Of a stretch of DNA of 64,000 nt, positions 5,887 to 61,391 are shown in pieces. Within the stretch, counting starts at the first letter, position 1, and every line of letters begins with the position of its first letter. The stretch covers positions 682,001 through 746,000 of the forward strand of contig NZ_CP012328.1 in the NCBI RefSeq assembly GCF_001262715.1, in the 5' to 3' direction. The notes beneath the pieces are model-generated. The model was not told the origin of the DNA, searched no databases, and worked only from the letters and a program-made list of their open reading frames with translations. A program made the translations under genes and the position numbers. Origin of the DNA: Spiroplasma turonicum (GTDB lineage Bacteria; Bacillota_I; Bacilli_A; Mycoplasmatales; Mycoplasmataceae).

Positions 5887-8123
5887 TTAATTTTGTAAAT
5901 ATTCATGCTCAATTATTTCTTCTTTAATTATATTTTTTTCATTTAAAATCTCAAAATTATTTAATGAACCTATATTTTTTTCCTTTAATAAAATGGCACA
6001 AGCATAATTTATAGTTTCATTATTTCTTTCAAATAAATCAGAACAATCTAATTTGATATAGAAATTATTAGTATCTTTAGTATAACCATAAGGTTTATCA
6101 AAATCCTTATTTATTAAAACTCTATTTGGATCATATTTTTTAAAATGCTCTAATAAAACTTTTTCTGTAGCATTTATTCCATTTATTTTTTCTGTTTTTT
6201 TGGATTTAAAAATATCTCTTTTATTACCCATTTTATTTTCTGCAACAATTTTAAATTCTAAATTAATTGTTGAATACTCATCTCCAAGTTTATTCGATGG
6301 AACAACAAAATATGAAATACCTATGGCATAAGTAAAATCTTGTTTTACTTTTTCAAAATTATTTTTTATTTCTGTATACGTTGGTAATTTTATATTAATA
6401 ATTTTAGAATCTTTTGGACTTGCTTTTCCTTCAATTATTAACATTAACATATCTAAACTATTATTAAAATTAATATTTGGTAAGTTATTATCTGAGACTT
6501 CTGTTAATATATTAATTAATGCTTTTATTGATTCTAATGATAAATTGTATTTGTTCATTAAATAACAACATTTTCTTGCTGTTAAAGGTGCTGAAAATGA
6601 AGTTCCATCATTCCATACCATATAACCAGATTCATCAATACTATATTTTCAATCATAAGAACTATCTTTAGCAGAAATATCATTTGAAACTTCATAGGTA
6701 TTTGGTTTTTTGAATCTTCCGAAAATATTTTTTGATCCTGAATAACTTGCAATCTTTAATTCATTATTAGTATTTTCATATAAAGATCCCACAGTTATAG
6801 CAGATAACGAATCAGCTCCTGAGGCAATTTGATTATGAGTATTTCCAGCAGAAATTACAAATAAAACATTATATTTTTTTTGTAAAATATCAAAATAATG
6901 TCCTAATAAAGAAATTCCTAGATCATTATTTTCTGAATCAATAGATAAATTTCATATTTTAATTTGTTTATGATTATTTTTTATTATTACTTCAATTTTT
7001 TTCATAAAATAAAACATACTGATTTTACCTTGAGGTAAAATCCCAAATAACTTAACTTTAAAAATTCCTAAATCATCTTTAAATTTATCATTTATAATGT
7101 CATTCCCTATTATTAAGGAACTAACAGAAGTTCCATGACTATAATCTTTATTAAAAACAATACCTTCAATTTTCGGAAATGGTTCTTCAATATATTCAAC
7201 ATAATTTTCTCATCCATTACTAAATGATCCATATGTATCAATAACTCCTATTAAACCATTTACTTTTAAATTAGGTTCAATTAATATAGGTTTTTTAATT
7301 TTTTCATTAGATTCTGAAGTTTTAATATCTATATCTTTAGTAGCTTTAGAAATTAAAAAGGGATATAGCTCAACTATTTTATTAATACTAATTTTATCTA
7401 AATTTATAAACTTGTTCAATACTATAACTTCCTGAGGTATTTCAATTCCACCATCTGATAATTTATTAATTATAGTTGAAAAATTATCAATATCAAAAAA
7501 TGTAATTATTTTTCCTTCATTAAATGAATCATGTTTAACTACTTTTACAAATCCTATTTCATATATTTCTTCATAATATTTTTTAAATAACTTTAAATTA
7601 TTTTTCATAATATAATTATCAATCTCAAAGTTTAACTTTTTTCTTAAACCTTTATAATCTTCTTCTCTTTTGTTACTGATTTGTTCTTTATGAAAATAAT
7701 ATATATTTTGACGTTCTTTAATAAACTTAATTAATTCATTTGATCATAAATTAATTAATACTTCAATATTTCTTTTTGTAATTTCAATATCTTTTCTTGA
7801 ACACAAGTAAATTAGATCAATTTTATCTTGTATTTTATTATTAATAAATATATAGTTAGATCCTATTTGTTGAGGCTTCTTATTATTATATTGAAAAATA
7901 TTTTTAGGCCTATCACTTTTAGGTAACAATCGATTAAATCTAATTTGTATAGGAAGATAAGAAAAGGCATGTTTATAAATTTTAAATTCTTCTATAACTT
8001 TATTTAATTGACTTAAAATTTGATTTAGTAAATCGTAATTGAATTTTCATCTTAAATAATTAAAACTTCCTCCTCTTTTTTTTTAATTATTTTATTTGGA
8101 CATTTATATTTAATTAATTTCAT
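5887..8123 (-). CDS. subtilisin-like (S8) serine protease, frame broken at a poly-A tract
   Basis: Peptidase partner of the AAA+ ATPase upstream. If one A is added to the run at 8076-8084, the protein is 745 residues. Catalytic residues are all present: Asp in GVIDTYG (about 297), His in YSHGTS (about 332), Asn in SAGNTHNQ, and Ser in GTSFSAP (about 507). No signal peptide is visible, so it is probably cytoplasmic. The start is ATG 8123, which overlaps the ATPase stop by 14 bases and implies translational coupling. From there the frame runs MKLIKYKCPNKIIKKK into nine As and then stops; with ten As it joins the long protease frame. No good alternative start exists in the long frame. AAA ATPase plus S8 peptidase pairs are recurrent in mollicutes and other bacteria and are suspected of defence or self-cleavage roles. 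The substrate is unknown. Confidence 0.75.
8076..8084 (-). repeat. A9 homopolymer in the protease gene (slippage site)
   Basis: Nine Ts on the plus strand (nine As in the coding strand) lie 40 bases after the protease start codon. Nine As put translation into an early stop, while ten restore the 745-residue frame. It is a candidate for phase variation or RNA polymerase slippage, or else a sequencing artefact. Confidence 0.6.
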
Positions 8124-9114
8124 TTTTTTGTCTCCTTATAGTTGAATAACTTTTATTTAATATTATTGCCTTATCTTTATCTGAAAATTCTATTGAAGTT
8201 AAAATTTCATTTCTATCAAAACTTAATATTTTATAAATAGAATGTTCTAAATTAGTATTATTAAATATACTATCAGTAATAAAATCATCAATATTAGAGT
8301 AATTTAAATAACTTTTTTTAATACTTAACATTTTTTTTACAATGTCCTTTTTAAAAGGAATCTCTTTTTCAAGAGCTAATTTAAATAATCTTTCAATAAA
8401 CATTTTCATATCAATCGACTTACAAAAAATTTTAACATTAAATCTTCTTAATGTAGCACTGTCAATCATATCAAGTCTATTTGTTATAGCAAAAATAATT
8501 GTTTCAGGTAATAATTTATCAAGCATTAAATTAAATGAGCCTATCATTCTATGATATTCCTTATTCATAATCTCATCTCTTGAACCAATTACAGAATCAA
8601 ACTCATCAATGATAAATATACTTTTTTTATAATTATTAGCAATATCTTTAAATAATAAATCCATATTTTTTTGAGTCTGACCAATTAATGACGAAACTAG
8701 TTTACCAGCACTGATACTATATAACTTTCTATTAGTTAGTTTTGCTAAATCTTTTACAAAAGTTGTTTTTCCTGTACCAGGCATCCCATATATAATTACT
8801 TTTAAATAACCTAATTGTCTTAATTTTACTTTATCTAAAATAATATTTACAAATTTTGTAATATCTTTATTATTCTTATTATAAATTTCATTTTCTAAAA
8901 ATAAATCTTCTAAAATTAATAATTGTTCACAATCACTATTAAATGTTGAACTTTTTACAGTTTCTTTTGAGCCTAAAATATTAAAAATATACTCTGAATC
9001 ATTATATTTTCCTTCGCTTCTAAGATGCTTTGCATATTCTTTTAATTTTAATATCGCATCTTCAGAATTTGTTAATAATACTAAATCAATTATGTCCTTT
9101 ATTGAACTATTCAT
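8110..9114 (-). CDS. AAA+ ATPase partnered with subtilisin-like protease
   Basis: AAA+ ATPase of 334 residues. Walker A YGMPGTGKTTF is near residues 108-118, Walker B IFIIDEFDSV near 168, sensor-1-like FAITNR near 208, and an arginine finger in TLRRFN. The N-terminal 100 residues are helical and unassigned. ATG 9114 is chosen over an in-frame GTG at 9129 because GGAGG sits 8 bases before the ATG and overlaps the GTG. The stop overlaps the start of the S8 protease gene, so the two form an operon. In such pairs the ATPase is thought to present substrates to, or hold in check, the protease; that is inference here. The region upstream holds 21-bp tandem repeats and a long TA run that may affect its promoter. 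Confidence 0.85.
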   Translation of the reverse strand: MNSSIKDIIDLVLLTNSEDAILKLKEYAKHLRSEGKYNDSEYIFNILGSKETVKSSTFNSDCEQLLILEDLFLENEIYNKNNKDITKFVNIILDKVKLRQLGYLKVIIYGMPGTGKTTFVKDLAKLTNRKLYSISAGKLVSSLIGQTQKNMDLLFKDIANNYKKSIFIIDEFDSVIGSRDEIMNKEYHRMIGSFNLMLDKLLPETIIFAITNRLDMIDSATLRRFNVKIFCKSIDMKMFIERLFKLALEKEIPFKKDIVKKMLSIKKSYLNYSNIDDFITDSIFNNTNLEHSIYKILSFDRNEILTSIEFSDKDKAIILNKSYSTIRRQKNEIN

Positions 9115-9198
9115 ATTTTTTGCCTCCACTACAAATATTTCTTATTTATTGTATCATTAGACTAAAAGAAATTATTTTTTAAAAATATAATTGAATAA

Positions 9199-12255: not shown

Positions 12256-13194
12256 AACACTAAAAAATGAAATAGAAAAAATATCATTAACTTCATTTCA
12301 AAGAGATAATGTTAATGAGCATTTTAATAAAATAAGCAACGAAATTAAAAAACAGGGTATTGCTAATAATATACAAAAACAAGGTTCTTTTGGGAGGGGC
12401 ACTGTAATAAAGGGGCAAGAAAGTGATGGATTTGACTTAGATATAGCGATATTAGTAAATAACAATAATGCATCTAGAGCCAATCAGTTAAATGACAGTA
12501 TAATGAGTTTACTAAAAAAATTATATCCAGAAAAAATTATGTTAATTGAAAAAAAGCAAAAGCTATAGGTATTAAAGTTAAAAGTAATTTTTCAATTGAT
12601 ATTACACAAATTTTTAAAACAAATTACGAAGAGTTAGTATTTAATAGTTATACAAATAATTTTGAAAATTCATATGCTATTGAATTTAAGAATATGTTTA
12701 GAAAGAAAAGTACTGAATCTAATAATGAGTTAAGAGATATTTGTAGAATATTTAAACATATAAGGGATTCTGTTAAAGATATAGAAGTTAAATCTTTAGC
12801 GCTGGAAATAATGCTTTATAATGCATTTCATTTTCAAAAAGATTATAATTATGGTCAAAGTATGATAAATGCATTAAAGAATTTAGAAGTAAGATTGAAT
12901 AAAATGATTAATGATAATCAATTTCAAAAAATCTCAAATCCTGCATTTAAAAATGATTTAATAAAAACTGGTTTGGAAAATGTTTACGAAGTAAAAGACT
13001 TAATTACTCTAAGTACTTTGGTATTAAAAGTGATAGAAGCTTGTGTTTTGAATGAAAAAGAATTTCATGGTTTAAAAAGAAAGTACAAAGCTTTATCTGA
13101 CTTAAATAAAGATTTTACTAGCTCACTTATACCTGAAAACAAAACTATAATATCAGGAGGTGTTTTTGGTGGAGATCAAGTGAACGAAGATTAA
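12245..13194 (+). CDS. CD-NTase-like nucleotidyltransferase, frame broken at A7
   Basis: Nucleotidyltransferase-fold enzyme, predicted to make a nucleotide second messenger. The motif is QGSFGRGTVIKG (G47, S48) followed by D64-x-D66 in FDLDIAI, with a third Asp in FSIDITQ (about 118), giving the three-Asp metal site. The C-terminal half is helical. GGAGG lies 9 bases before ATG 12245, and the start overlaps the TM gene. At the A7 run 12549-12555 the frame enters a TAG. One extra A gives a continuous 316-residue protein (EKKAKAIGIKVKSNF...). It lies between a four-TM protein and an unknown protein, which suggests a minimal CBASS-like operon. Other NTase-fold enzymes (for example toxin-type MNT) are less likely because of the spacing GSxGRGT-x(10)-DLD and the TM partner. 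Confidence 0.7.
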
Positions 13195-23598: not shown

Positions 23599-23782
23599 AA
23601 AAAAACTACACCTCTTTCTAGTGTAGAATTTATTTTTCCCAGTTTACCTCATTATAGTGTGAATTTATTTTTCTAAGTTAATTAGTTTTATTCAAACTGC
23701 TTAAGTTATAAATTAGATGATTTTAACCACCTTTGAGGGTAATTTTTTGTTAATATTAAAACATAAATCAAAAGGGGTAAAC

Positions 23783-25696
23783 ATGAAAATAAAAATAGTA
23801 AAGTATCAAAATTTTGAGGAAAATTCAGAATTTCAAGTTGATGAATTAAATTTAATAATGGGTGAAAATGAAGTGGGTAAATCAAGATTTCTTGAATTAA
23901 TAAAGGAAACATTAAATATAAATAATATTAAAAATTTAGAATTTAATAAATTAGAAGACTTTTCTATTGAATATTCGTTTGATAATATTCTAATTTTAAT
24001 TGAAAAAAAAGATAATGAAGTTAAAATTAAATTTGTTTCAAAAGAAAATACTATTTTAACAAATAGCATTGTAGAACATTATGAAAGATTTTTAGAAAAT
24101 AAGTTCTTAAATATTTTTGATAATATTGAATTTGAAGAAGATGATCATTTTTTTGAAGAAGCAAAAAAAATTTTTTTAAATTGGAATGATTTATATAAAA
24201 AAAATTTGAATTCATTAGAAATTGTTAAAACAATATTATCAGAAAAAAGTCAAAGTCAAAAATATTTCACATTACATAATTTTATTAATAATGTTAATTT
24301 TAATGACGTACTTTATAAAAAAAATTTGATAGATTTTAAAAACTTTTTAAAACAAACTAATTCATGATATTGAACTGATATTTATGATGATTCAATAGAC
24401 TATATATTTGAAAATATTATTTATAAGTTAATACCAAATATTTCATGTATTTCTAATGATATATACAATGATTTTAGTTTTAATTTACTTGATTATGAAT
24501 CCATTACTAATGAAAATTTAAATTATATTCAAAATAAATTTATGGAAATAAGTAACATAAGTAAAGAAGATTTTATTAATTTAACCTCTAAAAGGGGTGA
24601 AGAACATGATGAAATTAAAAGCATTATAGAAAAAAAATTATCAGATTTAACAATGGAAATAAATGAATTTTATAAAAAAAATGTTTCTGAAAGTTTATTA
24701 AATAATAGTGTATTTTATTTAGGTTATGATAGTGGTAAATATTTTATAAATATTAAAGACAACTCTTTAAAGAATTCTTCTTTAAAACACATGAATGAAT
24801 ATAAATCATCAGGTTACATTGAGTTTTTTTATATCTTTATTATATTAAAATGAATTTCTTTAAAAGATAAATATAATAAATACATAATTTTATTAGATGA
24901 ACCCGGTAACTTTTTACATCCTACTATAAGGTTCAAGTTAATTGAATTGTTTGAAAAAATTAGTTCTAGAGATAGAAAAATAATTTTTACATCACATAAT
25001 TTAGAAATGTTTGGTTTTAATGTTGGTACAATTTTCAAGTTCAAAATAAGCGAAGATAATAAAATTCAAATCTTAAATCATTATAACACTATTGATTGAA
25101 GATATACAATGTTGGAGGATGTTATGAAAAATTTATATAATCATGAATATGATCAAAAATTTAGTAAAAACGATGAAATATTGATAGTTGAAGGATATAC
25201 TGATAAAATAATTTATTCAAAAATTATTAAAAATGGAAAAATTAAAATTTTTGCAGGTTCTGGTAAAGGGAATGACAAAAATAAAAAATTATTAAAATAT
25301 ATTTCATACATGCTTGTTTATGATTTAAAGATTAATGTTTTAATTGATAATGATGATGATTCTTTTAATGATACTATAAATAAATATCAAAATTATTTTA
25401 ATCCTGATATAGTTAATATTATATTATTGGATAAAAATTTTAAAGATGCAGAATATTTAGTAAAATTTATTACGGATGACTTTAAATATATTGATAACTC
25501 TTCTATATTATTAGAATTATCTAATTGTTTTGATAAAATAAAAAAATCAGAAAATAGAGAAGAAAAAGTTAAGAATAAACTTGATTTTGCAAATTTATTT
25601 GATAAAAACTTTGATGAAATTGAAAAATGTATTAATCAAAAAAAATTGGACTTATTTTTAAATACTCTTAAAAACGAAAAACATAACATTTCATAA
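23783..25696 (+). CDS. OLD-family ATPase-TOPRIM nuclease
   Basis: 637 residues, intact under code 4. The N-terminal ABC-type ATPase has Walker A GENEVGKS (27-34), a signature-like YKSSGYIEF, Walker B IILLDEPGNFLHP (about 368) and an H-loop FTSHN. The C-terminal TOPRIM domain has Glu in ILIVEGYTDK (about 468), the acidic run LIDNDDD (about 520), and DAEYLVKF. This is the OLD (overcoming lysogenization defect) architecture: ATP-dependent nucleases that act in phage exclusion, alone (class 1) or with a UvrD-like partner as in Gabija (class 2). No helicase neighbours it, so class 1 fits. ATG 23783 has AAAAGGGG upstream. It is bracketed by two IS-B copies, so it looks like transposon cargo. An anti-phage role is likely but inferred. 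Confidence 0.85.
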
Positions 25697-26374: not shown

Positions 26375-27756
26375 AGAATAAACAACCTTAAAGAGACCAT
26401 ATTAGTGATACTTTAAATACTAATATATTCAAAAGAAAGGTTGTTTTTTATGCCAAAAATAATAGATAAAAAGATAAAATTAATAGCTATAAAAAAATTT
26501 TTAAGTGGTGAAAAACCGAAGTCAATAAAAGAAGATTTAAATTTAAAAAGTGGCGTTGCTCAGATATATCAATAAGTAAAAAGATATAATATTAATGAAT
26601 TAGAAAGCGAATTAGATTATTCGCCTTGTGAGGTTAATATTTATATGCAGAAAGATATAGAAAATAAATTACTTAAAAAAGAAAATCAAAAACTCGAAAA
26701 AGAGATTAAAAACTTAAAAAAAGAAAAATTGAAAGATAGGGCTAAAATAGAATTTTTGGAAAAGCGCATGCCTTCTTGCATGAATTTATCGAAAGAACAG
26801 ATGAAGATACAGACAAGTAAGAAGGCTTGAAAAAATGATGCCTATAATATTATTTTTTATGATAATTCAGTTGAGCTGAATTTAAAGGATAAATGTAAAG
26901 CACTTTTTGTAAATTACTCAAATTATGCTAAGTGAAAAATAAAATATCATGATATTTTATCAAGAGGTAAGACAACTAAGTTAAAACGAAAGTATAATAA
27001 ACGTGCGATTGAATTAATTAATAAGTTCACTAAATTAAATGGTGCTTCAGGCGCTCGCAATGTAAGTTCTTGAATTACGGACAATCATGCAGTTAACATT
27101 AGTTATAAAATAGTAAACGAACTAAGAAATAATAAACTTGTAAAATTACCAAAAATTAAGAGAGTTGCAAAAAAATATACTAGTCAAAGGGGCAATGTTG
27201 TCCCAGACCTTATTAAAAAAGATTTTAAATCACAATATAATTTTCATAAAATTGGTTTAGATGGTTCTTATTTAGATCTTATAATAAATGGGAAAAAAAC
27301 AAAAATATTAGGAGAATTTGCATACAATTGATACAATCGAGATATGATTGCTTACAATTTTGATTTCAGTGAGAATTCGCAAGTAGTAAGTAAAACAATT
27401 ATGGATATTATTAATGTAGTAAGTAATTATAAAGTTGATTATTCAATTATCCAAATGGATAGAGGTACAGCAAACACTTCTAATATAGTTAAAAACATAA
27501 TTGAATGTTACCCAAATTTTGTTTTATCAATGTCAGAAGCTGGTTTTAAACATAATGCTCCGACAGAATCATTAAATGGTTGATTTAAGGAATGTTTTTT
27601 TGCAGAATATGGAAATATATTTCTTAGTATCCAAGAATTTTTAAATAAATTTGATGAATTTATTATTAAAAGAAACTCTTTACAAACTTACATATACAAT
27701 AAAAAAAGAAGCCAAATAATATAAAATTTTCAGGTCTCTTTAAGGTTGTTTATTCT
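26375..27756 (+). mobile_element. IS-C copy 1, with 3-bp target duplication
   Basis: 1382 bp with inverted ends AGAATAAACAACCTTAAAG / CTTTAAGGTTGTTTATTCT. CGT is duplicated on both sides (TATCGT|AGAATA ... TTATTCT|CGTTGA); removing one CGT plus the IS restores the IS-B sequence TCTATCGTTGATAATG. It is nearly identical to the copy at 35498-36880, so insertion was recent. Confidence 0.92.
26450..27724 (+). pseudogene. IS-C transposase (one internal TAA)
   Basis: A 424-codon frame starting MPKIIDKKIKLIAIKKF. It has an N-terminal helix-turn-helix (KPKSIKEDLNLKSGVAQIYQ), a coiled coil (about 67-100), and DDE residues in HKIGLDGSYLDL, IQMDRGTANTS and NAPTESLNGWFKE. After AQIYQ the codon is TAA where the other copy has TGA (Trp), so a single G-to-A change has broken it. 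Re-initiation downstream (MQKDIENK at 26645) could still make the catalytic part. It is related to the IS-A transposase. Confidence 0.8.
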
Positions 27757-28340
27757 CGTTGATAATGAAACCTTTTTGTTTTAAAATAATAATTATTTTT
27801 CTACTTCCATAAATAAATTTTGAATCTATTATTATACTTTCAACAGCATCTTTTAGATGATTGTATTTAAACTTTCTACTAACACTTTTTTTTATAAAAT
27901 GATGTTCTATGCATCAGTATAATTCTTGCTTTTAATGTTGTGTTTAATGACTTTATTTTGTTAATAGATTTCCTTTCTTGTTCATCTTTCTTATTTTTAA
28001 TTCAATCTTCTATAATTTCTCTTTTTTTGTTCTTCGTTCAAATCATCGATTATTCCAGGAATATCAGAATCATCTCTTTTTTTTGTATCTTCCAGAACCT
28101 TTTTTTATAATTAAACTTTTCATACCATAATTATCTACTAATTTAGCTTTTCTTTTAATTCTTTCACGAATTTCACATGAGTGTTTCAAAACTTTAGATT
28201 TTATTATTCTATATTCAACTCAGCTATTCTTATTCCTTCATTTTTATATATATTTATTATTTTTAATCATTGTTCAACTGTTAAATTTTTTGACATAAAA
28301 AACTACACCTCTTTCTAGTGTAGAATTTATTTTTCCCAGT

Positions 28341-30728: not shown

Positions 30729-30964
30729 ATAAAAAACCATAAATAATATAAAATGTACATTATTAAAACATGCTAAAATAAAATTTTCTTGTATCAAATA
30801 TTAACAAACACAATAGATTAAAAAAATATTATATCAAGTATAACATATGAATAAAATCCTCTATGTATAGAGTTTGAATAAAAAATTTCTAATATAATCT
30901 ATATATAGAGAATTTTTATATGGCAAATTTATAAAGAAATAAATCAAACATTGTTTCATTAGAA
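30729..30964. other. intergenic, small palindromes only
   Basis: AT-rich, with CTCTATGTATAGAG at about 30860 and a related CTATATATAGAG at about 30900. No gene seen. Confidence 0.5.
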
Positions 30965-32166
30965 ACAAAAATAAATATAACGTTAATGAATTAATATTAT
31001 ATTCATCACCTATTTTTGTCTTTATGTTACTTGCAGCCATACCTGATAATGCACATAATTTTATTTCACAACTGGGATTTACTTTTTTAGTTAAATCTAC
31101 AATGCTTTTAATAACAGTTGTTTTGCCTGTTCCTGCTCTTCCATTAATAATAATTATTTTATTTTTAATATAACTTTTTAATACTTCTACTTGCTCTTCA
31201 GTTAATATATTTAAATTAGCGATATTAAAATTTTTTGCATAATATTCTCAATCATTTTTAAATAAATTTATATGTTCTTGTTTTAATATTTGTTTTATTT
31301 TTTTAGATATCTCATATTCATATAGATAGTATATATAAGGATAGTATTTGATCTTATTAGAATTAGTAGATACTTTTTTAATATAATTGTTTTCAATACA
31401 ATCAGTAATTAAATTTCTAACATCTTTTAAATATGTATCATCTAATAATTTCATTAACTCAGTACTTTTTAGGTAAAGATCCCCATTTTCACTGCAGCTT
31501 TTATAAATATTTAGAATAAAATATAAATGTTTTATTTTTTCAACATTAAGATTTAATTTTAAAGATATTAAACAATCAAATATATCACTATAATATTCAG
31601 TTACATCAATATATTTATCAATATTTCTTAATCTTTCTAAAATAGAACTTACAAATTTACTTTTAAAATAATCTATATCATCTATTTCAATATTATTAAA
31701 AAAAGTAGTCAGAATATTAAAATTTAGACATTCAAGATGAAAAAAAGATAGGATCTTAATGCCTAAATTTTTGAATTTTTTTTGAGAGTTTTTTAAAAAG
31801 TGCAGTAAAACATCATTATTCTCTTTATTAATTAAGTTTTTATCATTATTATTAAATGACTCAATTCGATATAAAAATCACTTGATCAAATATATTTATT
31901 CATAGCTTGGCAAAATAATGAAAATGCATTGTTATTTCAACTTGCAATAGTATAAAAATTTAAAACTTCAACTGCACCTTTTGATAAAAATCATTTAGGT
32001 TTTACTTCTATTACAATTGTTTTATTAATATTATTATTGATAAACTTTTTACTTTCAATTAATATACTTGAAACGTCAAATATTAGTACTTTCTGATCAT
32101 CTAATAGTAAATGAATTTCATTATTAACATATTTTGTTAATAATCCTTTGTTATATTTTTTATACA
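30965..32166 (-). pseudogene. RecD-like helicase, truncated and frameshifted
   Basis: ATG 32166 opens MYKKYNKGLLTKYV, and a frame change occurs near 31890 (around QAMNKY / RIESFNN). The second frame then runs to a Walker A IINGRAGTGKTTVIKSIVDL at about 31080-31130 and motif Ia-like CALSGMAASNIK. After KIGDEY (about 30995) homology stops, so motifs II-VI are lost. It is the N-terminal part of a RecD-like SF1 helicase, paralogous to the decayed copy at 4258-5560. A functional product is unlikely. Confidence 0.65.
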
Positions 32167-32234
32167 TTCTTTCTATTACCCTTTATTTCTTAATCACTAC
32201 ATATATTTTAAAACATTATATTTATATTAACAAA

Positions 32235-32820
32235 TTAGTTATTAATTGATTTTAAAAACTCGTCATCACTTGTGGATGTACTTACACATACTTTAAAACT
32301 TAATATTTTATATAATACTTCTTTATAGTTAATGTATAGAATATAAGCATACATAATTGTTTCAAAATAGGATTTTTTAGTTAAGTTATTCTTTATATAA
32401 AATTGTCATAATGTTTTCTTTTCTTCGTGATAACAATCAAAAGTACCACTATTAATAATGTCAGTAGTTAAATAATTTTCTTTTATAATTCTTATAGATA
32501 GACACTTATCATGATTTATATAAATTAATTCTTTATAATTTAGTTTGTTTGATGGGTCACCTTCATTAAATAATTTTTTAGCATATACATAAAAATCTTT
32601 AGTTAACCATTCAATTTTAGTTTTTTTTAATTGATTATATTGAAATAATCTACGAGAAGTTATAGCTTATAGTAAACAAACAATTTTTGTTAAATCTCTT
32701 ATATAAAAATTGTTTTTATTTAATAATTTATTAATATAATTTTTTATTATAAAAAAAATGTAATCATTATATATTTTTAAGTTGATTTTTATGTTTAATT
32801 TTTGTGAAATATAACTTATT
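32235..32820 (-). pseudogene. unknown gene next to the reverse transcriptase, one stop
   Basis: A minus-strand frame of about 190 codons is interrupted by TAA near 32668 (TKIVCLL stop AITSRRLFQYNQ) and lacks a clear start. The remaining protein is helical and rich in Lys and Asn (ELIYINHDKCLSIRIIKEN, FDCYHEEKKTLWQFYIKNN). Family not recognised. It lies just downstream of the reverse transcriptase and may be a lost partner of it. Confidence 0.4.
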
Positions 32821-32848
32821 TAAATTAAATAATTTTCAATTTAATTTA

Positions 32849-34659
32849 CTACACATCTATGAAATCAATGTTATCTATGATAAATTTTAAAAAATTATCT
32901 TCAGGTTTATCTAAATTATCTAGTATAGTGCTAGGAAATAAATTATTATATTTTATTTTAAATTTATAAATTTCAATAAATAGGTAGGATTTATCACTAA
33001 AATAGATATTATCGTATATTTTTTTAGTTAATTCTATCTCCTTATTTATTATTTCGACTAACTTATAAATAAAATCTTCGTAAATATATTCACATTTATT
33101 TAGATTTTTTCTTAGGTAATTGATAACAATCATTAAAGAAAATGTATTAATAGCATCTAATTCGTATATAAATTCAACTAATTCTTTAATATCAATTTCT
33201 AATTTTATTAATATATAGAATAAATATATTACTGAAAGAGCATTATTATTAATACTTTCTTTTATTAAAACTTTTAACTTATTTATATAAAATCCTTTAT
33301 CTTCTTTACAATATTTAAAAGCTTCAAAAAGTATATCAAAAATAATGTTGCTTGGTCTATCGTTAATCATCAAATAATTAACTAAATATACAAAAATATA
33401 TTTATACAAATTATCGTTAATTTGTTTAATTATTATGTCTTTTAAAATTTTAAATACATATTTGCTATTTCTATATTCAACTTTGCTGATATAATTACTT
33501 AATGCATTTCACTCATTAATAGATGGTTTTTTTAAATTACTATATCTTTCTTTAATATAATTTAACTTAATATAATCTACATCTTCGTTATACAATATAC
33601 TTTTAACACTTGTCTTATTTGGGTTAATTTCAAAATTTATTTCTCTAATAATGTTTTGGAATATATTGTGTATTTTTAAATATTCAGATTCATTGTTACA
33701 ATAAAACTCATAATCATCCTTAAAATTGATAAAGTTAGTAATCTTTTCTTGATGTAATTTATAATTAATAAAGGATAATATTATTTCAGAAATTATATTT
33801 GAAGTAAATGGACCTGTAATAAGTAAATTGGTTTGATTCTCATTTACAATATTACAAAAATTGTCTAATAAATCTCCAAAACTATTTATATAATTATTTT
33901 CTTTAAAAATTTTTTCGTTTTCATTTATACTTGTAAGAAATTCAATTATAGGTGGTTGTGTAAAGATATGACTATAAACTCTGTTATAAAAATCTTTTAT
34001 ATCTATTTTATAAATATATCTCTTACCAAATTTTTTTCATTTTTTATTTGAATGTTTTTAGAAAAATTATTATTAGAATTAAAATCACAATAATTAATAT
34101 CTGAAATATTATTTAAATGGAAAACTTGTTCATCGTAGTTTTGTTGAAGATAACTTATTTCTTCATAGTTTTTATTATCATTAAACAATTTAAACAAATT
34201 ATTTTTATTAATATTATTATTTATGATTTTATAAATCATTAATTTATTTATTAAAAAATAAAAAACTTGAAAAATATATGATAAGAAATGTGGTACGCTT
34301 ATTTTTCGTAAAAAATTATCACTTTTTTGTATTAGAAATGAAGCGCTTGGAAGCCCTTTTTTTTGTTTTCATCCATTTGCATTTTTAAGTGTGTAATTAA
34401 CTTTACTTTTAATTATTTTTATGAAATTTTTTAATTTTTCAAAATCAGTTTCAAAATCTATATTTATTAGACTTGAATAAGTATCATCATTAGTAGTTTC
34501 AAAATATTCTATTATTTTGAGAAAAGAATTTTTTTTATTTTTAGAGCTAGTAAAACATTTCGGTAGATTATGAAACAATCCACTATTTAAAAATATGTTT
34601 AACTCTTCATCAAAAAGTTCATTATTAATTAATTTTTCTTTTAAACTGCTGATTTTCAT
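32849..34659 (-). CDS. defence-type reverse transcriptase (Abi/DRT-like), frame broken at A7
   Basis: With one extra A at 34031-34037 the frame is a 603-residue protein. RT landmarks are FLRKISVPHFLSY (about 120), motif A YIYKIDIKDFYNRVYSH (about 214-230), motif B-like LLITGPFTSNIISEIILSFI (about 275-295) and motif C FKDDYEFYC (about 313), i.e. the catalytic Asp pair. The last 230 residues are an alpha-helical extension without known motif. The TGPxTSNxISEIIL form and the DFYxxVYSH element are typical of the unknown-group/Abi RTs used in phage defence (DRT systems), not of group II introns or retrons. AAAGGAG lies before ATG 34659. A decayed gene follows it. The class within DRT is uncertain, and activity depends on the frame. 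Confidence 0.75.
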
Positions 34660-34911: not shown

Positions 34912-37000
34912 AAATTAATTTTACAGTTTTTAAATATTAATGCTTGTTATGGTCGGGATTTTTCAGTTTAAAATTTTAAGTATAATTTTGTTAATTACTT
35001 TGTTTATTATTAATGTGATTTAAACATTCTCATTTTAATCAGCTTAAAAATATTTCATTTTCACTGTTGTATATTGAATTAACTATTCTACTCATTGATA
35101 TTTTACTATCTTTTTTTTACTAAACATTACTTCAAAACTTAAATATTGTAAATATGATATGATTAAAAATTTATTTTATTAATTTCGTTTATTTTTTCTA
35201 CAACTAATCGGATATTGTTCTTTATAATAAGCATAAAGAAACTCTTTTTTATTCATATTATTGATAGTTGCAAATTAATAATTATTAATTTCTTAAACCA
35301 ATGCATCAGTATGATAAAATTAGTTACTGTTAATTAATTTGTTTTATATTATAATTATGCTTAACTATATTAGGAAACTTGATCTTATTATTCTTTGACT
35401 ATTGTCATAATTGTAAAATCTCATCTTTTTAAATATTATATTAAAGAACTAAATTTAAAATAAATCTTTTTTTAACAAAATTATCTTTTTTCTACTTAGA
35501 ATAAACAACCTTAAAGAGACCTGAAAATTTTATATTATTTGGCTTCTTTTTTTATTGTATATGTAAGTTTGTAAAGAGTTTCTTTTAATAATAAATTCAT
35601 CAAATTTATTTAAAAATTCTTGGATACTAAGAAATATATTTCCATATTCTGCAAAAAAACATTCCTTAAATCAACCATTTAATGATTCTGTCGGAGCATT
35701 ATGTTTAAAACCAGCTTATGACATTGATAAAACAAAATTTGGGTAACATTCAATTATGTTTTTAACTATATTAGAAGTGTTTGCTGTATCTCTATCCATT
35801 TGGATAATTGAATAATCAACTTTATAATTACTTACTACATTAATAATATCCATAATTGTTTTACTTACTACTTGCGAATTCTCACTGAAATCAAAATTGT
35901 AAGCAATCATATCTCGATTGTATCAATTGTATGCAAATTCTCCTAATATTTTTGTTTTTTTCCCATTTATTATAAGATCTAAATAAGAACCATCTAAACC
36001 AATTTTATGAAAATTATATTGTGATTTAAAATCTTTTTTAATAAGGTCTGGGACAACATTGCCCCTTTGACTAGTATATTTTTTTGCAACTCTCTTAATT
36101 TTTGGTAATTTTACAAGTTTATTATTTCTTAGTTCGTTTACTATTTTATAACTAATGTTAACTGCATGATTGTCCGTAATTCAAGAACTTACATTGCGAG
36201 CGCCTGAAGCACCATTTAATTTAGTGAACTTATTAATTAATTCAATCGCACGTTTATTATACTTTCGTTTTAACTTAGTTGTCTTACCTCTTGATAAAAT
36301 ATCATGATATTTTATTTTTCACTTAGCATAATTTGAGTAATTTACAAAAAGTGCTTTACATTTATCCTTTAAATTCAGCTCAACTGAATTATCATAAAAA
36401 ATAATATTATAGGCATCATTTTTTCAAGCCTTCTTACTTGTCTGTATCTTCATCTGTTCTTTCGATAAATTCATGCAAGAAGGCATGCGCTTTTCCAAAA
36501 ATTCTATTTTAGCCCTATCTTTCAATTTTTCTTTTTTTAAGTTTTTAATCTCTTTTTCGAGTTTTTGATTTTCTTTTTTAAGTAATTTATTTTCTATATC
36601 TTTCTGCATATAAATATTAACCTCACAAGGCGAATAATCTAATTCGCTTTCTAATTCATTAATATTATATCTTTTTTACTCATTGATATATCTGAGCAAC
36701 GCCACTTTTTAAATTTAAATCTTCTTTTATTGACTTCGGTTTTTCACCACTTAAAAATTTTTTTATAGCTATTAATTTTATCTTTTTATCTATTATTTTT
36801 GGCATAAAAAACAACCTTTCTTTTGAATATATTAGTATTTAAAGTATCACTAATATGGTCTCTTTAAGGTTGTTTATTCTCTTTCATAAAGAAAATTGCT
36901 TTTTTAAAAAATGATTAAACATATACATTAAATGATTGTTTAAAAAGATATACGATGAATTAATATAATTCTCACTTTAATTGTTAATTATAACAACATT
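34912..37000 (-). mobile_element. IS-B copy d (very degenerate), hosting IS-C copy 2
   Basis: Weak but collinear similarity to IS-B. The left part (34912-35497) has the AATTTTACAGTTTTTAAATA end. The right part (36881 to about 37000) has the ATGAATTAATATAATTCTCACTTTAATTG stretch. No reading frame left. Confidence 0.6.
35498..36880 (-). mobile_element. IS-C copy 2, with 3-bp target duplication CTT
   Basis: 1383 bp, nearly identical to copy 1 but inverted. CTT is found at both borders (TACTT|AGAATA ... TTATTCT|CTTTC). Its transposase has two defects: one extra A in the run after the QIYQW region (six As instead of five) and GAA-to-TAA in LSMSEAG. Copy 1 lacks both but has its own TAA. Confidence 0.92.
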
Positions 37001-41213: not shown

Positions 41214-42876
<1,663 letters not shown>

Positions 42877-47290: not shown

Positions 47291-47902
47291 CTAACTATTA
47301 AACAAACAAAAATCATAAAAATTAATATTTTCGTTAAATTTATCTAAAATGAATAAAGTATTTGTTTTTTTATCAAATGATTCAAAACTCATAGCTTTAG
47401 CTTTAAATTCAATATTTTCGATTGTAAAAAATTTATTGAGTTTTTCTTCTAAGATATTACAAATATGATTAGCTTTAAAAGAATCATTTGCAGGTCTTGA
47501 TATTCTAGATTTATAAACAAAATAAAATATTATTTCATTTGTAAGTAATAAATTAATAAGAACTGCTAAATAACAAACGGAGTCTCTAATTTTTATCACT
47601 AAATTTTCTATTTTTAGGTTTTTTAAATTTATATGCTTAAATTCTATTAAAAAAAGTAATGACTTACTTGAGATTTTATTATTAAATAAAATTGAGTCAA
47701 CTGATTTAGGTGTTAACTTATGTTTACTACATATCCTTCTATTAGAAAAATAAGTTTTTACAATATAATCAAAATCTATGCCTTGATCTAAAGAATTACT
47801 AGCGGAATGCAGAGTTGTAGACTCTTGTTGTACATAACAACAATTATTAGAAAGACAATTCTGAGTGCATTTTGATATTTCTTTATATGTTTTAAAAATC
47901 AT
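47291..47902 (-). CDS. unknown protein with PD-(D/E)XK-like pattern, partner of AAA ATPase
   Basis: 203 residues, not a recognised family. It begins with a Cys-rich patch (CTQNCLSNNCC, residues 12-22), then has a plausible nuclease core: D in SVDSILFN (about 69) and E-x-K in FLIEFKH (about 86-90), with beta-strand-like surroundings. The C-terminal half is helical. ATG 47902 overlaps the ATPase stop by 11 bases, so translation is coupled. ATPase-nuclease pairs of this layout (as in Septu, where PtuB is an HNH protein) are anti-phage systems; here the nuclease would be of another fold. The assignment rests on a short motif, so it is tentative. Confidence 0.55.
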   Translation of the reverse strand: MIFKTYKEISKCTQNCLSNNCCYVQQESTTLHSASNSLDQGIDFDYIVKTYFSNRRICSKHKLTPKSVDSILFNNKISSKSLLFLIEFKHINLKNLKIENLVIKIRDSVCYLAVLINLLLTNEIIFYFVYKSRISRPANDSFKANHICNILEEKLNKFFTIENIEFKAKAMSFESFDKKTNTLFILDKFNENINFYDFCLFNS

Positions 47903-49559
47903 TTATATTTTCCTCTTCAATAAAATTCATAACGTCATTTATATTAGAACCTATAACAATATTATTATTAGATTCTATTACTTTACTAAACTCAGAATCA
48001 TTCTCTTTATCTATATAAATATAATTAATATTTACATTTTTATATTTATTTTTTTTAATATCTATTGATGTAAGTAAAGAAGGGCTATGTGAAGATAATA
48101 TTATTTTACAATTCAACTTTTCACATATTTCAAAAAAGATTTCAACTATTTTGTGTTGTCACAATGGGTTTAAAAAATTTTCAACCTCGTCTAAAATAAC
48201 AACTGAGTTTTTTTTAAAAACCCCTGATTTTAACATTAGTATCAAAGCTTGAAAAGTAATTACCCCCTTAGATAAGCTTAATGCATTTATTTCATAATTT
48301 CTTCTACTTAAAAATAAACCATTATTTTTTCTCCTCATAAAAGAGTGGTCAAAATTAGTTATATTAACTATTTTTTCAATTATTAAATCAACTTCATTTT
48401 TATCTGAAAAATAACTTATTAATTCATCATTCAAGTCAAAAGATTCATTTTTAATATTCTTGATTATTGAATTAGGATCTAATTTTTGCAACAGATCTAT
48501 TTCTGGAGAATTAATATTATATATTTTATTCGAATCTATCATATTTGAATTTTTAAATCTAAGTTCGTTAATACTTCTTGAAGATTTATAATTCTCAAAT
48601 GAAAATTTATTTGTTAAAAAATAGTTAAAAGTTTCAATTAAGTTCTCACAATATGTAACATCACTTATTTCATAATTATTTTTTTTTATAATAACATCTA
48701 AATTATCATTATAATTGTTATTAACATAATGATATTCAAAACTAATATCATTATCATCATAAAAAACATTAGTGACTAAATCTGTTGATGTAATTTTTGA
48801 TTTTACATCATTATTAAACATACTTTTTGTAAAACTAGGAACAGTCAAAGATAACAATGTTTTTTTTATGTCTAAATCATTTTTATTCTCTATAATTCAA
48901 TTATAACAAGTATTTAAAATTATGAAAACTTCTTTTAAATTCTTTTGTTGTTTTAGTCTCAAACTTAATATACGAAAGTACCTTTCAGTATTAACATCAC
49001 TAATTAAAATATTGTATAAATTTTGCAAAGGTTCAAAATATTTTTTTAAAAGTAATTTATTATTTTTGTAGTTAATTTCTGATATTTTTTCTTCAATATA
49101 CTGTATCATACTAAGTATATAATTTAAGCTAAACAGCATTTCATTTTCATTTTTAATATTTTCATCAAAAAATATGTACTCATCAGTAAAAAACTCATCA
49201 GTAATGTTATTTGTATTATCTTTACTTTTCATGAATATATCAAACTCTTTAATTAGATTAAAATCATTATTAAAAACTTTCTTTGCTTTAATTTTCTTTT
49301 CTTTGTATAAATTAGGATCTATTTTATAAATATACTTTATTAAAAATTTGAGAGAATTAAAAAATTCAACTAGATTATTATCAAATTCATTATATAAATT
49401 AAATTCTTTTGAAATACTACTACATTTAATTAATGAATATATTAATTTATTTAAGGTACTTTTACCTATATCGTTTTTACCATAAATTACATTCAAATCA
49501 CTTAAATGAACTGTGTTCTGATTACCAAATAGACATAAATTTTTGAAAGATATTTTCAT
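47892..49559 (-). CDS. ABC/AAA-type ATPase (OLD/PtuA-like, no TOPRIM)
   Basis: 555 residues, intact. Walker A is YGKNDIGKST (26-35), a signature-like NALSLSKGVITFQAL lies near 425, Walker B VVILDEVENFLNP near 455, and the H-loop LSSHSPSLL near 487. A long helical insertion between Walker A and the signature is as in SMC/OLD-like ATPases. The protein ends after the ATPase fold, so unlike the gene at 23783 it has no TOPRIM domain; the effector is probably the coupled downstream gene. ATG 49559 has TTGGAG before it. The architecture resembles PtuA-type ATPases of defence systems. The role is inferred from family and coupling. Confidence 0.82.
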
Positions 49560-56068: not shown

Positions 56069-56152
56069 AATTTTATTTTATATAAATTTATATGAATATT
56101 TATAATTTATATTCTTAATTCAGAATATTTTTAAATTTAAATTTGGTTAATG

Positions 56153-59093
56153 GTTCTACTACTAAATAATTTTACAGGGTACCATAACAAATGTTAAGTA
56201 TGTTATTAATTGTTAAGAGTTCTACTACTACATAATTTTACAGGGTACCATAACTTTTGTCTTCTTTACTATAAGCAACATTATGTTCTACTACTACATA
56301 ATTTTACAGGGTACCATAACCATCACTTCCATCATTTTGCATTTTGTAAAGTTCTACTACTACATAATTTTACAGGGTACCATAACGCAAACTTAATTCA
56401 TAATTAGAATTAACTGGTTCTACTACTACATAATTTTACAGGGTACCATAACAGTAGAATCTTAATAAAATTTGATTAACATGTTCTACTACTACATAAT
56501 TTTACAGGGTACCATAACTACAAGTCAATATTAAACTGTGAGTTTCTGGTTCTACTACTACATAATTTTACAGGGTACCATAACTAAAAACTTAAATAGT
56601 CTAAATGACTTAATGTTCTACTACTACATAATTTTACAGGGTACCATAACAAACCAACTTTTTTATTGTTTTTGGTTAATGTTCTACTACTACATAATTT
56701 TACAGGGTACCATAACAAGTATTAAGTAAAGCAAGGTCATTAAAAGGTTCTACTACTACATAATTTTACAGGGTACCATAACGTTCTGCAAAATTATCAT
56801 ATAATTTAATAGGTTCTACTACTACATAATTTTACAGGGTACCATAACCAGATAAACAATATTGGAGTAGAAATATTAGTTCTACTACTACATAATTTTA
56901 CAGGGTACCATAACCGTCTAACACATAAAACAAATATTTCAAAAGTTCTACTACTACATAATTTTACAGGGTACCATAACTCATTTGCTTAATTATAGGC
57001 ATTGGTTTTGGTTCTACTACTACATAATTTTACAGGGTACCATAACTTTGGTGAATTTATTAGTTAATCATTGGACGTTCTACTACTACATAATTTTACA
57101 GGGTACCATAACTACTTTCACGTATTTTTTTGGCTTCACTGTGTTCTACTACTACATAATTTTACAGGGTACCATAACATTGTTCCGGTGATAAAGTGAT
57201 TTCGTAAAGTTCTACTACTACATAATTTTACAGGGTACCATAACCAGTTATTAATCTTTCTTTTTTGCCCTCCAGTTCTACTACTACATAATTTTACAGG
57301 GTACCATAACACAATGGGTTGGAAGCTAGAAACAATGGTGGTTCTACTACTACATAATTTTACAGGGTACCATAACCAAATCCTGTTGATGCTTTTGATT
57401 TAATTAGTTCTACTACTACATAATTTTACAGGGTACCATAACAACGCTATTGTAGTTGTTATTGCTTGTAATGTTCTACTACTACATAATTTTACAGGGT
57501 ACCATAACGTGGTGCTTAAACCTTTTTAATTGGTTGTGGTTCTACTACTACATAATTTTACAGGGTACCATAACTTTACTTCTAAATCAAATTCTAATTC
57601 TAAAGTTCTACTACTACATAATTTTACAGGGTACCATAACGGTTAGACTGTTTTGTGAGTTTGTCTGCTAGTTCTACTACTACATAATTTTACAGGGTAC
57701 CATAACTTTCTAACCATTTTTAACATGTTTTCATTGGTTCTACTACTACATAATTTTACAGGGTACCATAACGTGGAAAACTATATAAAAATACAGTGTA
57801 CGGTTCTACTACTACATAATTTTACAGGGTACCATAACAAATTAACTTTTTTGGTTATTTTGGTTAATGTTCTACTACTACATAATTTTACAGGGTACCA
57901 TAACATTAAAAGCAGAAACTCACAGTTTAATATTGTTCTACTACTACATAATTTTACAGGGTACCATAACTTGTTTATAGAAAGATTTTCAAAGTTAAAA
58001 GTTCTACTACTACATAATTTTACAGGGTACCATAACTATTTGCATAAAATGTTTCAAAAGTACGTTGTTCTACTACTACATAATTTTACAGGGTACCATA
58101 ACAATTATTATTGTTAACAACTTTATATAAAAGTTCTACTACTACATAATTTTACAGGGTACCATAACGTGCTTTGTCATTGTGTATAGTCTCCTAAAGT
58201 TCTACTACTACATAATTTTACAGGGTACCATAACAGGTTGGTATTAATAGTAAAATAAAAAAACTGTTCTACTACTACATAATTTTACAGGGTACCATAA
58301 CAAATGATAAGACACTTTTTTAGTTTTTAACGTTCTACTACTACATAATTTTACAGGGTACCATAACTTTTCAGTTTCATTTGGAAATAGCACTTTTGTT
58401 CTACTACTACATAATTTTACAAGGTACCATAACACACATTTGGCAATTCTACTTCTTTGCTAGGTTCTACTACTACATAATTTTACAGGGTACCATAACC
58501 AGATGTTAAAAATAATGTTGATAGTGTTTGTTCTACTACTACATAATTTTACAGGGTACCATAACACGCAGAGGATGAGTTAAATTCTTTAATAGGTTCT
58601 ACTACTACATAATTTTACAGGGTACCATAACCAATACGACTGTTATTGAAAATATGTCTACGTTCTACTACTACATAATTTTACAGGGTACCATAACTCA
58701 TTGTAGAGTTTTAATAAATGTTGAGTTGTTCTACTACTACATAATTTTACAGGGTACCATAACGTTTTAAGGTTGTTAAATTTAATGCAAATAGTTCTAC
58801 TACTACATAATTTTACAGGGTACCATAACAATATAGTTATGGTTATGAGCAACCAGTTTGTTCTACTACTACATAATTTTACAGGGTACCATAACGTATC
58901 TTGGTTCATTGTTTGGCTAAAATATGTTCTACTACTACATAATTTTACAGGGTACCATAACGTATAGGTTCAGGTCTATTTTCTGCTGCAAGTTCTACTA
59001 CTACATAATTTTACAGGGTACCATAACTCCTTTAAGTAATTTTTTTCTATAATTTCTGTTCTACTACTACATAATTTTACAGGGTACCATAAC
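56153..59093 (-). CRISPR. type II-A CRISPR array, 45 repeats / 44 spacers
   Basis: 36-bp repeats every 66 bp. On the plus strand they begin GTTCTACTACTACATAATTT and end ACAGGGTACCATAAC. Spacers are 30 nt, except one of 31 (58235-58265). The array is transcribed from the minus strand, as shown by the anti-repeat in the tracrRNA (61331-61356) and by the leader on the right. The farthest repeat (56153) carries a C-to-A change, as expected of the oldest, trailer-end repeat; the repeat at 58398 has a single G-to-A change (ACAAGG). All other repeats look identical, so the array is active or recent. Two spacers (56519-56548 and 57905-57934) overlap in opposite orientation. Confidence 0.98.
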
Positions 59094-59150
59094 CTCAAAT
59101 CAAGTCTTTTTAGTTAATTTTTATAAGTTTATAATATATTGGAAAACGGG
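59094..59150 (-). promoter_or_regulatory. CRISPR leader
   Basis: Directly before the first repeat the minus strand reads GACTTGATTTGAG. The ATTTGAG ending is the known leader-anchoring element used by type II-A Cas1-Cas2 for integration. Only 27 bp separate the repeat from the csn2 stop at 59121, so the rest of the leader and any promoter lie inside the csn2 3' end. Confidence 0.75.
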
Positions 59151-60050
59151 ATAGTTTAAATCTATTAACTTGTTGTTAAAATTAATTATAATTTTATATA
59201 TATTTTCTAGTAATTCAGCTTTAAATTTATCTAAATTATCTGTATTAGAGAAATTCATATAAAACTTTAAATCATCATAAATATTTGAGAAATCAATGAA
59301 ATTATTATTAATATATAATTTTAAATTTCAATAATCAATATAATCTTCAGTTAAAAATTTATCTGTTATTATTATATAGTTTTTTAGGTTTAATATTTCA
59401 TCAAAATAATCTTTCATGCTATTGTAGTCTAAACCAAAAAAAGGATTTATAAAAATAAAGAATAAATTTTTATCTTCGATAACTAAAAGCAATTTTAATA
59501 TTTCAATATATATACTTCTTAATTTTTTTTGATTTAATAAAACAACGTTATCATTATCGTTTTTATGGCTAATCTCTAATATTGTTTGTTCTGCGATATA
59601 ATTAATTATCTGATCTTGTATTAAATAATTAAAATTGAGTTCAAATTTATTATTCAAATTATTTAATAAGTTTTCAAGAACTTTAATTTCACATAAATCA
59701 ATCGTATTAATAAAACTAAATAAATTAGTTATACTCTCAGAAGAAAATGCATTATATTTTAAACATAATATAATTAAATCTTTTAGAATACTTTTATTAC
59801 CACCGCAAATATCTTTTGAAAATTCGAGAAAAGAAGGTATTCTAACCAATTTACAGTTACTTTTATCTATTTGAATGTCGTTTTTACTCATACTTATATC
59901 ATAATCACTTGTAGAAAATTTATTTGAAAATATTAAACTTAAACAGTTATTAATATCTTCTATCATCTCAATATCATTTAATAAAAAGATATTTTTATCA
60001 AGAAATGTAAATGTATAATTTTTATTCGTTATTTTGTTTGTAATTTTCAT
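59121..60050 (-). CDS. csn2: Csn2, long form
   Basis: 309 residues, longer than the roughly 220 of the classical Csn2. It is a ring-forming DNA-end-binding protein needed for spacer acquisition in type II-A systems. Identified from position (last cas gene, before the array) and from the Csn2-like pattern NDIEMIEDINNCLSLIF near the N-terminus and LFFIFINPFFGLD near 195. ATG 60050 shares one base with the cas2 stop (TAATG). One TGA (at 59328) is read as Trp. The sequence is otherwise diverged, as usual for this family. Confidence 0.8.
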
Positions 60051-60373
60051 TATATTTCGATCAATCTCCTATCATCAATTATTAATTCTTCATTACTTTT
60101 TTTACCAACAACTACTTTTATATTTTGATATTGTTTTTCTGTTATTGTTAAAAATCTTACATTTCCTAATTTTGGAAGAAATTTATTAATTCTTTTAATT
60201 ACAAAGTCTACAGACTCTTTATTGTAACAAACCTTTGAATATATTGAATATTGCATCATATGAAAGCCTTCTTTGAATAAATTATTTCTAAATGTATTAT
60301 ACGATCTTACATTTTGTTTAGTATCAAAAGGTAAATCATAAAAGACCATTAATCTCATGTATCTATAACTCAT
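60050..60373 (-). CDS. cas2: Cas2
   Basis: 107 residues. The start MSYRYMRLMVFYDLP matches the conserved N-terminus of type II Cas2 proteins, with the Asp of the ferredoxin-like core (FYDLP). It forms the integrase complex with Cas1. ATG 60373 overlaps the cas1 stop by 11 bases, and the stop overlaps csn2, so cas1-cas2-csn2 are one coupled operon. Confidence 0.95.
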   Translation of the reverse strand: MSYRYMRLMVFYDLPFDTKQNVRSYNTFRNNLFKEGFHMMQYSIYSKVCYNKESVDFVIKRINKFLPKLGNVRFLTITEKQYQNIKVVVGKKSNEELIIDDRRLIEI

Positions 60374-61268
60374 AATATTCAACTGATGATATAATTGGAT
60401 AAAATAAATTTGAGATATCTTTTGTATCAAAATAATTTATTATCAAATCAACATATTTTTCAATGGCATTAGTTAAATAGATTTTAGTATCTCTAAATGT
60501 TATTTTTGAATTTAAAAGATTAACTAGTTCTAATTTTGTTGCTCTAGAAAAATAATCAATATTCATAACATTTTTATATACATAGTTATCAACAATTGGT
60601 CTAAATGGTTCCATTAAATCATCTGCTAAAGCAAAAGCATTATACATATTATGATGAAATAATGCTATTGATGGATGTAAACCTTTAGAAACTATTGTTC
60701 TTGCAAATGCATGTCTTAATATTGTATATCCAAAATTTAAAGCTGCATTAATATGATTTTCTTTATCTCTTGTAAAATCATGACCATATAATTCTTTAAA
60801 ATAAACTTTTGCTGCATGACCTTCTCTATTAGTCACATCACTAAATTGAAGTTCTTCAATATAGTTATATAATAATTGGATTTTATTAATATCCTTTAAA
60901 TTTAGTTTTAATATATCAATTTGAGCTTCAATCTTTTGTCTTACAATTTGTGTTCATAAATATAGTTTATCTTCTTTATTTCATTCAAGTTGATTATTAA
61001 TAATTCTTAATTGCATATGATTTGCTTCTATTGGTTGAATAATAGAAATAGGTTTAAAATCAACATCACATATTATAGTTAAAATCTTCTTTTCTGCTAA
61101 TTTATTTATTATTCTTGTAGTTATAGTTGTTTTATAATTTTCAAATAAAATTGCATTTATATCATCTAATGGAATATGATATTTCATATTATTGTTTTCA
61201 ACAACAAAATTATTTAAAAATAAACTAACCCTTTCTCCATCTTTTATAATTATAGTTTTCCAAGACAT
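60363..61268 (-). CDS. cas1: Cas1 integrase
   Basis: 301 residues, intact under code 4. Catalytic Glu is in NREGHAAKVYF (about 149), His in ALFHHNMYN (about 205), and the acidic pair in ADDLMEPFRP (about 220). It is the spacer integrase of the type II system. It starts just downstream of the tracrRNA terminator; no independent promoter is obvious, and expression may come by read-through from cas9 or from a promoter near 61300. Confidence 0.96.
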
Positions 61269-61272
61269 AATT

Positions 61273-61362
61273 ATAAAAAAAAGAGGAATAAATTCCTCAG
61301 TTACGGCATTAAAGCCTTATATATGATAGTCCTGTAAAATTATGTAGTAGTAGAACTCATAT
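61273..61362 (-). ncRNA. tracrRNA
   Basis: Lies between cas9 and cas1 on the minus strand. It opens with a 26-nt anti-repeat (61331-61356) identical to the plus-strand repeat and so complementary to the minus-strand crRNA repeat. Next come a bulge region (ACTATC), a nexus-like hairpin GGCTTTAATGCC (61305-61316) and the terminator hairpin GAGGAATTTATTCCTC followed by eight Ts (61275-61298). The position and order match type II tracrRNAs. The exact 5' end is unknown; it probably begins 5-30 nt upstream. Confidence 0.92.
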
Positions 61363-61391
61363 ACAAATTAATAATACTACATTAATTTTAA

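Follow-up and report, generated by a model that had tools for sequence, protein, structure and literature searches.

A broken class 1 UG/Abi reverse transcriptase gene in a degrading defence island of Spiroplasma turonicum

The 64,000-base stretch of DNA analysed here, called the window, corresponds to bases 682001-746000 of the single 1,261,374-base chromosome of Spiroplasma turonicum, and positions are given within it. On its minus strand a reverse transcriptase (RT) gene of about 605 codons occupies 32852-34659, lies in two reading frames and is open throughout except for one frame break. The N-terminal piece (34003-34659, minus strand, 218 residues), which corresponds to the fingers, begins with an ATG at 34659 preceded by the Shine-Dalgarno sequence AAAGGAG (34673-34667, minus strand) and aligns to both homologues described below. 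The C-terminal piece (32852-34036, minus strand, 395 residues) contains the palm, with motifs A (IYKIDIKDFY, 34015-33986), B (LLITGPFTSN, about 33826-33797) and C (FKDDYEFY, about 33724-33701), and the helical domain, as judged from profile matches, an AlphaFold model and fold matches. The second frame is open from 34057 to 32852 and resumes where both homologues continue, and the two pieces joined by an X give a protein of 605 residues. The longest open run was 124 codons when 300 random sequences, each of 3000 codons and matched in dinucleotide composition, were examined, so the 395-codon frame is not a product of chance. The core sequences KIDIKDFY, ITGPFTSN and FKDDYEFY are present with the catalytic aspartates intact, the protein exceeds the cut-off of Pfam RVT_1 (34.6 bits, cut-off 29.6), and its best PADLOC match is RT_UG30 (116 bits, E 3e-34). 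An earlier note on this DNA had recognized motifs A, B and C of an Abi/DRT-like RT in a mollicute, and the presence of a real RT, with motifs far beyond chance, is hereby confirmed. The span of 32235-34659 that it gave to the gene holds for the RT only from 32852 onwards, since 32235-32820 is a separate, decayed gene. Its statement that such RTs are little known in mollicutes agrees with their rarity in the order, where the UG30 profile is found in 5 of 320 genomes at E <= 1e-8. A promoter scan of the DNA found 48 candidates where shuffled sequences gave an expectation of 43, which is no excess.

Unbroken homologues of the RT (34-39% identity) are present in two congeneric genomes, G185 and G187. 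The N-terminal piece is 42% identical over 135 residues to the G187 protein (L009), and within this unbroken 605-residue protein it aligns to residues 7-138 and the C-terminal piece to residues 209-604. Given that both pieces match the same homologues in order and that no domain is missing from a three-way alignment of the window RT and the two homologues (34-37% identity), the protein has a single break; the truncation that the earlier note had allowed for did not turn up. The break is at a run of seven A residues (34031-34037, minus strand) in GAAAAAAATTTGG, where the downstream frame is -1 to the first and both homologues are uninterrupted. In the sequenced strain, therefore, the RT is not encoded in one reading frame, and translation runs into a stop at motif A with loss of the palm from the product. 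The break is recent, as there is no stop in the 395 downstream codons. Because the palm is lost and the neighbouring genes are decaying too, the gene is probably non-functional in this strain.

That the gene is instead alive, either because the break is a sequencing error or because full-length RT is made through slippage on the A run or through ribosomes shifting to -1 at A AAA AAT, seems to us possible though rather unlikely. There is exactly one break, it falls in a homopolymer and the entire downstream frame is open, and the first frame at this site reads A|AAA|AAT, which fits the X XXY YYZ pattern of slippery sites and needs the appropriate -1 shift, so that rescue by frameshifting may be possible in principle. 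Furthermore, resequencing with Illumina of the PacBio record of strain Tab4c (CP012328) revealed one 1-bp homopolymer indel, its position unstated (PMC5034139). However, no more than one indel of this kind was found across 1.26 Mb, and a glycoside hydrolase-like gene at 41214-42876, which is split into two frames with an A9 run near 41650 and resembles the RT in this respect, competes for it; the indel could be in the hydrolase, in the RT or elsewhere. Such errors must also be rare, given that the 88 runs of at least seven A or T inside intact open reading frames of the window are all unbroken. Moreover, both homologues carry the join in one frame, and the genes adjoining the RT are decayed as well.

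Directly downstream of the RT, a UvrD-like SF1 helicase gene survives as a remnant (32235-32820, minus strand; the match, to the body of the helicase, covers 32238-32624). The earlier note had correctly described this gene as decayed, and had suggested that the system may have lost a partner and that an intact homologue should be sought beside related RTs. Relatives of the helicase lie elsewhere in the S. turonicum genome and in three other genomes (G182, G186 and G195), and none is beside the RT in G185 or G187. We therefore rejected it as a lost partner of the RT, and the remnant gives no evidence for such a loss. Next on the same strand are two fragments of a RecD-like helicase gene, the first of which (31883-32167, minus strand) encodes the N-terminal 90 residues, with 28% identity to residues 27-117 of the RecD-like protein of L009, while the second (30861-31889, minus strand) matches residues 162-415 of 786 and ends soon after the P-loop. 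Another, even more decayed RecD-like remnant at 4339-5526 has 76% DNA identity to 30982-31166 along some 186 bases. Upstream of the RT lies an insertion sequence with a truncated transposase frame (35457-36880, minus strand) that is 98.6% identical to an inverted copy on the far side of the block (26375-27799, plus strand), and both copies lie in or against remnants of an older element. The RT locus is an old, degrading defence island rich in insertion sequences.

Several other defence-related genes were observed in the window. An IetAS pair, consisting of an IetS-like subtilase and an IetA-like AAA ATPase, both intact, is found at 5887-9129, and a similar pair is present in G182 (L033:10846-14062). 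A 166-residue open reading frame at 12694-13194 resembles the C-terminal part of a CBASS nucleotide cyclase without its N-terminal part, an OLD/AriA-like ATPase is encoded at 23717-25696, and an AriA/PtuA-like ATPase together with an adjacent 203-residue open reading frame of no known family is at 47291-49559. The region 56139-63803 contains a CRISPR array of about 2.96 kb (about 56139-59100), which fits the 2,940-bp locus published for strain Tab4c (PMC4653801), with Csn2 (588 bits, type II-A) and two open reading frames (60363-61268 and 61392-63803) whose sequences, judged without a profile, suggest Cas1 and part of Cas9.

The unbroken RT of G187 is surrounded by a nine-gene, same-strand defence cluster (L009:1335-14923) in the order Z1 helicase, unnamed gene, DndC-like, unnamed gene, DUF262, RT, LmuA-like, LmuB-like and RecD-like, in which the LmuA match is weak (E 0.004) and DndC- and Z1-like genes are present but no DndA, DndB, DndD or DndE was noticed. 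Among relatives of the RT, UG31 loci were found in Acholeplasma oculi, Bacillus sp., Robertmurraya, Ruminococcus bromii and Clostridium viride. UG31 RTs are located inside BREX operons in two Bacillus contigs and one Robertmurraya contig (BrxC, PglX-like, RT, PglZ, BrxL), immediately behind a type I restriction gene of A. oculi, and after McrBC-like genes in R. bromii. Sequence context, and not a profile, is the basis for naming McrC, the PglX genes in the BREX contigs and some more of these neighbours. In a Clostridia MAG (L082:7392-10365) a UG31 RT (414 bits) is directly beside a UG13b RT (349 bits) and near a type III methyltransferase, another UG31 RT is near PglX-like genes in a second Clostridia MAG, and one stands alone. 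We take this as recurrent proximity to modification and restriction genes in a small sample and not as proof of joint function. It is conceivable that the RT is part of a larger system, comprising the Z1 helicase, DndC-like, DUF262, RT, Lamassu-like LmuA and LmuB and RecD-like proteins, of which the window holds a decayed RT and a RecD remnant. These genes are contiguous and on one strand around the RT in G187, in the window, too, a homologous RecD, itself broken, comes after the RT on that RT's strand, and UG31 relatives lie inside BREX operons (three loci) and beside McrBC-like, type I and type III restriction genes. Nevertheless, we consider this improbable, as the unbroken RT of G185 is without such neighbours, G182, G186, G180 and G183 have the RecD-like gene but not the RT, and tblastn of the window found no remnants of DndC, DUF262, LmuA or Z1, while what LmuB matched was limited to brief, weak stretches of unrelated genes. 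There is also no DUF262 relative in the whole S. turonicum genome, and defence islands gather unrelated systems. A broader version, in which RTs of the UG30/31 type, those of the Spiroplasma branch among them, serve as working parts of DNA-modification defences (BREX, restriction and Dnd-like operons) and not as free-standing Abi genes that happen to share islands with them, strikes us as speculative and equally improbable; if true, the RT would act as an inbuilt reserve, producing toxic DNA once the host system is overcome.

The reading that we favour is that of a class 1 UG/Abi polymerase, and it begins with the profiles. After RT_UG30, the PADLOC models that match the window RT are UG31 and Drt6 (94 bits each), Drt4 (76 bits), then UG14, AbiP2 (57 bits) and AbiK (53 bits), most of the matches running into the helical C-terminus, while the models for RTs of group II introns and for CRISPR-associated RTs come far behind. 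The best profile is UG30 for the window RT and UG31 for the two homologues, although the Spiroplasma RTs score 116-135 bits compared with 329-462 bits for true UG31 members. In a 28-row maximum-likelihood tree, which includes AbiK of pSRQ800 and has no true UG30 row, the window RT and the two homologues (L008 and L009) form a clade with 100/100 support, and this trio groups with UG31, AbiK, Abi-P2 and Drt3b, the group II introns and the retrons lying outside this grouping. One row (L048) scores as Drt8, and neither it nor L040 affects the result. When the longest branches were removed, the class 1 set that includes AbiK and Abi-P2 had support of 98/99 and the trio was sister to UG31 with support of about 74-90. 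As this sister support is weak and a basal position of the trio in class 1 is not rejected, we assign the RT on its sequence and predicted fold to class 1 of the UG/Abi (DRT) polymerases and claim no UG number. The phylogeny that the earlier note had proposed thus places the protein in class 1 with AbiK, Abi-P2, DRT3b and UG31, and the position among group II intron or retron RTs that it had contemplated did not arise. Indeed, there is next to no chance of the RT being of group II intron or retron type, as its generic match to TIGR04416 (31 bits) is far under the cut-off of 300, tree and fold both point to class 1 UG/Abi, and an Rfam scan of 28-38 kb gave no match, and hence no intron RNA and no msr/msd, in line with class 1 RTs needing no ncRNA.

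With respect to distribution, a plasmid search with the G187 homologue gave no match, a UG31 RT used as query against plasmids and phages led to AbiK- and Abi-P2-type RTs, which served as references, and the sole match in viral contigs was one Drt3b-like RT. A search of 149 genomes for the AbiK family was without a match, but as the controls were equally silent this result carries no weight. A DRT3-type system is present in the same genus, with a Drt3a-like RT gene (94 bits) next to a Drt3b-like one (135 bits) in G187 (L010:6357-9918).

The C-terminal region of the RT (32852-33595, minus strand, model residues 148-395), which the earlier note had described as a 230-residue extension of unknown type and for which it had suggested structure prediction, is predicted to be the HEAT-like, alphaRep helical domain of class 1 UG/Abi polymerases. 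The AlphaFold model of the C-terminal piece itself, aligned with eight UG31 proteins, is of moderate quality (pLDDT 61.5), the helical region around model residues 170-310 being better (pLDDT about 60-86). Foldseek with this model gave 16 matches at E <= 0.001, all to the solved structures of DRT4, UG15, DRT6, Abi-P2 and AbiK, and VIA-align has concordant top matches and adds HEAT-repeat proteins over residues 148-337. A model of the UG31 relative from C. viride (L080, pLDDT 76.8) matches DRT4 over its full length (Z 21.6 over 446 residues) followed by DRT6 (Z 20.7), UG15, AbiK (Z 16.6) and Abi-P2 (Z 14.4), while group II RTs match only the palm and fingers (the best at Z 12.6 over 151 residues). 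On these models, the extension is the alpha-helical domain that defines the class.

We now put forward, with a probability of about 0.78, that the RT, now broken, belongs to a branch of the class 1 UG/Abi DNA polymerases that is specific to Spiroplasma and close to UG30/UG31, and that its intact form most likely acted like AbiK, Abi-P2 and DRT4. AbiK and Abi-P2 require assembly into trimers or hexamers, held together by the helical domain, and they synthesize untemplated DNA that is primed by a tyrosine (Tyr44 in AbiK; PMC9508834). For class 1 RTs in general, an alphaRep domain and untemplated synthesis are reported (PMC13174585), and DRT4 produces toxic, random single-stranded DNA, with DRT6 seeming to be similar (PMC13314766). 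By analogy, we propose that the palm and helical domain of the intact Spiroplasma RT would assemble into a trimer or hexamer, that one of its own tyrosines would prime DNA synthesis, and that phage infection would trigger the production of random single-stranded DNA without a nucleic acid template. This untemplated DNA would then kill or arrest the cell in an abortive outcome. A tyrosine that is invariant across the Spiroplasma trio, Tyr61 in the window protein, is in the same loop as Tyr44 of AbiK and is a candidate for the priming residue.

The RT is well classified, rare in mollicutes and of a kind already known, and the window gene is probably a dying one and adds little beyond distribution. 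It nevertheless extends the class 1 UG/Abi polymerases to Spiroplasma, organisms of reduced genome, and the two unbroken congeneric homologues are open to testing. Of the side results, the one of greatest interest is that UG31-type RTs are found within defence operons based on modification; with such RTs in BREX and restriction operons, a functional link between modification systems and suicide polymerases becomes testable.

Compared with the known systems, AbiK and Abi-P2 share with the window RT the palm, the helical HEAT-like domain and the class 1 clade, but they are distant from it, and Tyr44 of AbiK has no aligned tyrosine there. DRT4/UG15 and DRT6 are likewise single-gene RTs and provide the best solved folds across the palm and helical domain, although the DRT4 and DRT6 profiles score below UG30/31 on the window RT. 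The closest likeness is to UG30/UG31 (PADLOC-DB), which have the top profile scores and share the N-terminal G-F-F-x-E-L-P-like motif, motifs A-C and the helical domain. In contrast to these, the Spiroplasma RTs are longer (about 590-605 versus about 500 residues) carry roughly 50 additional residues within the fingers and form a clade of their own; over the C-terminal piece, identity to the window RT is 22-27%.
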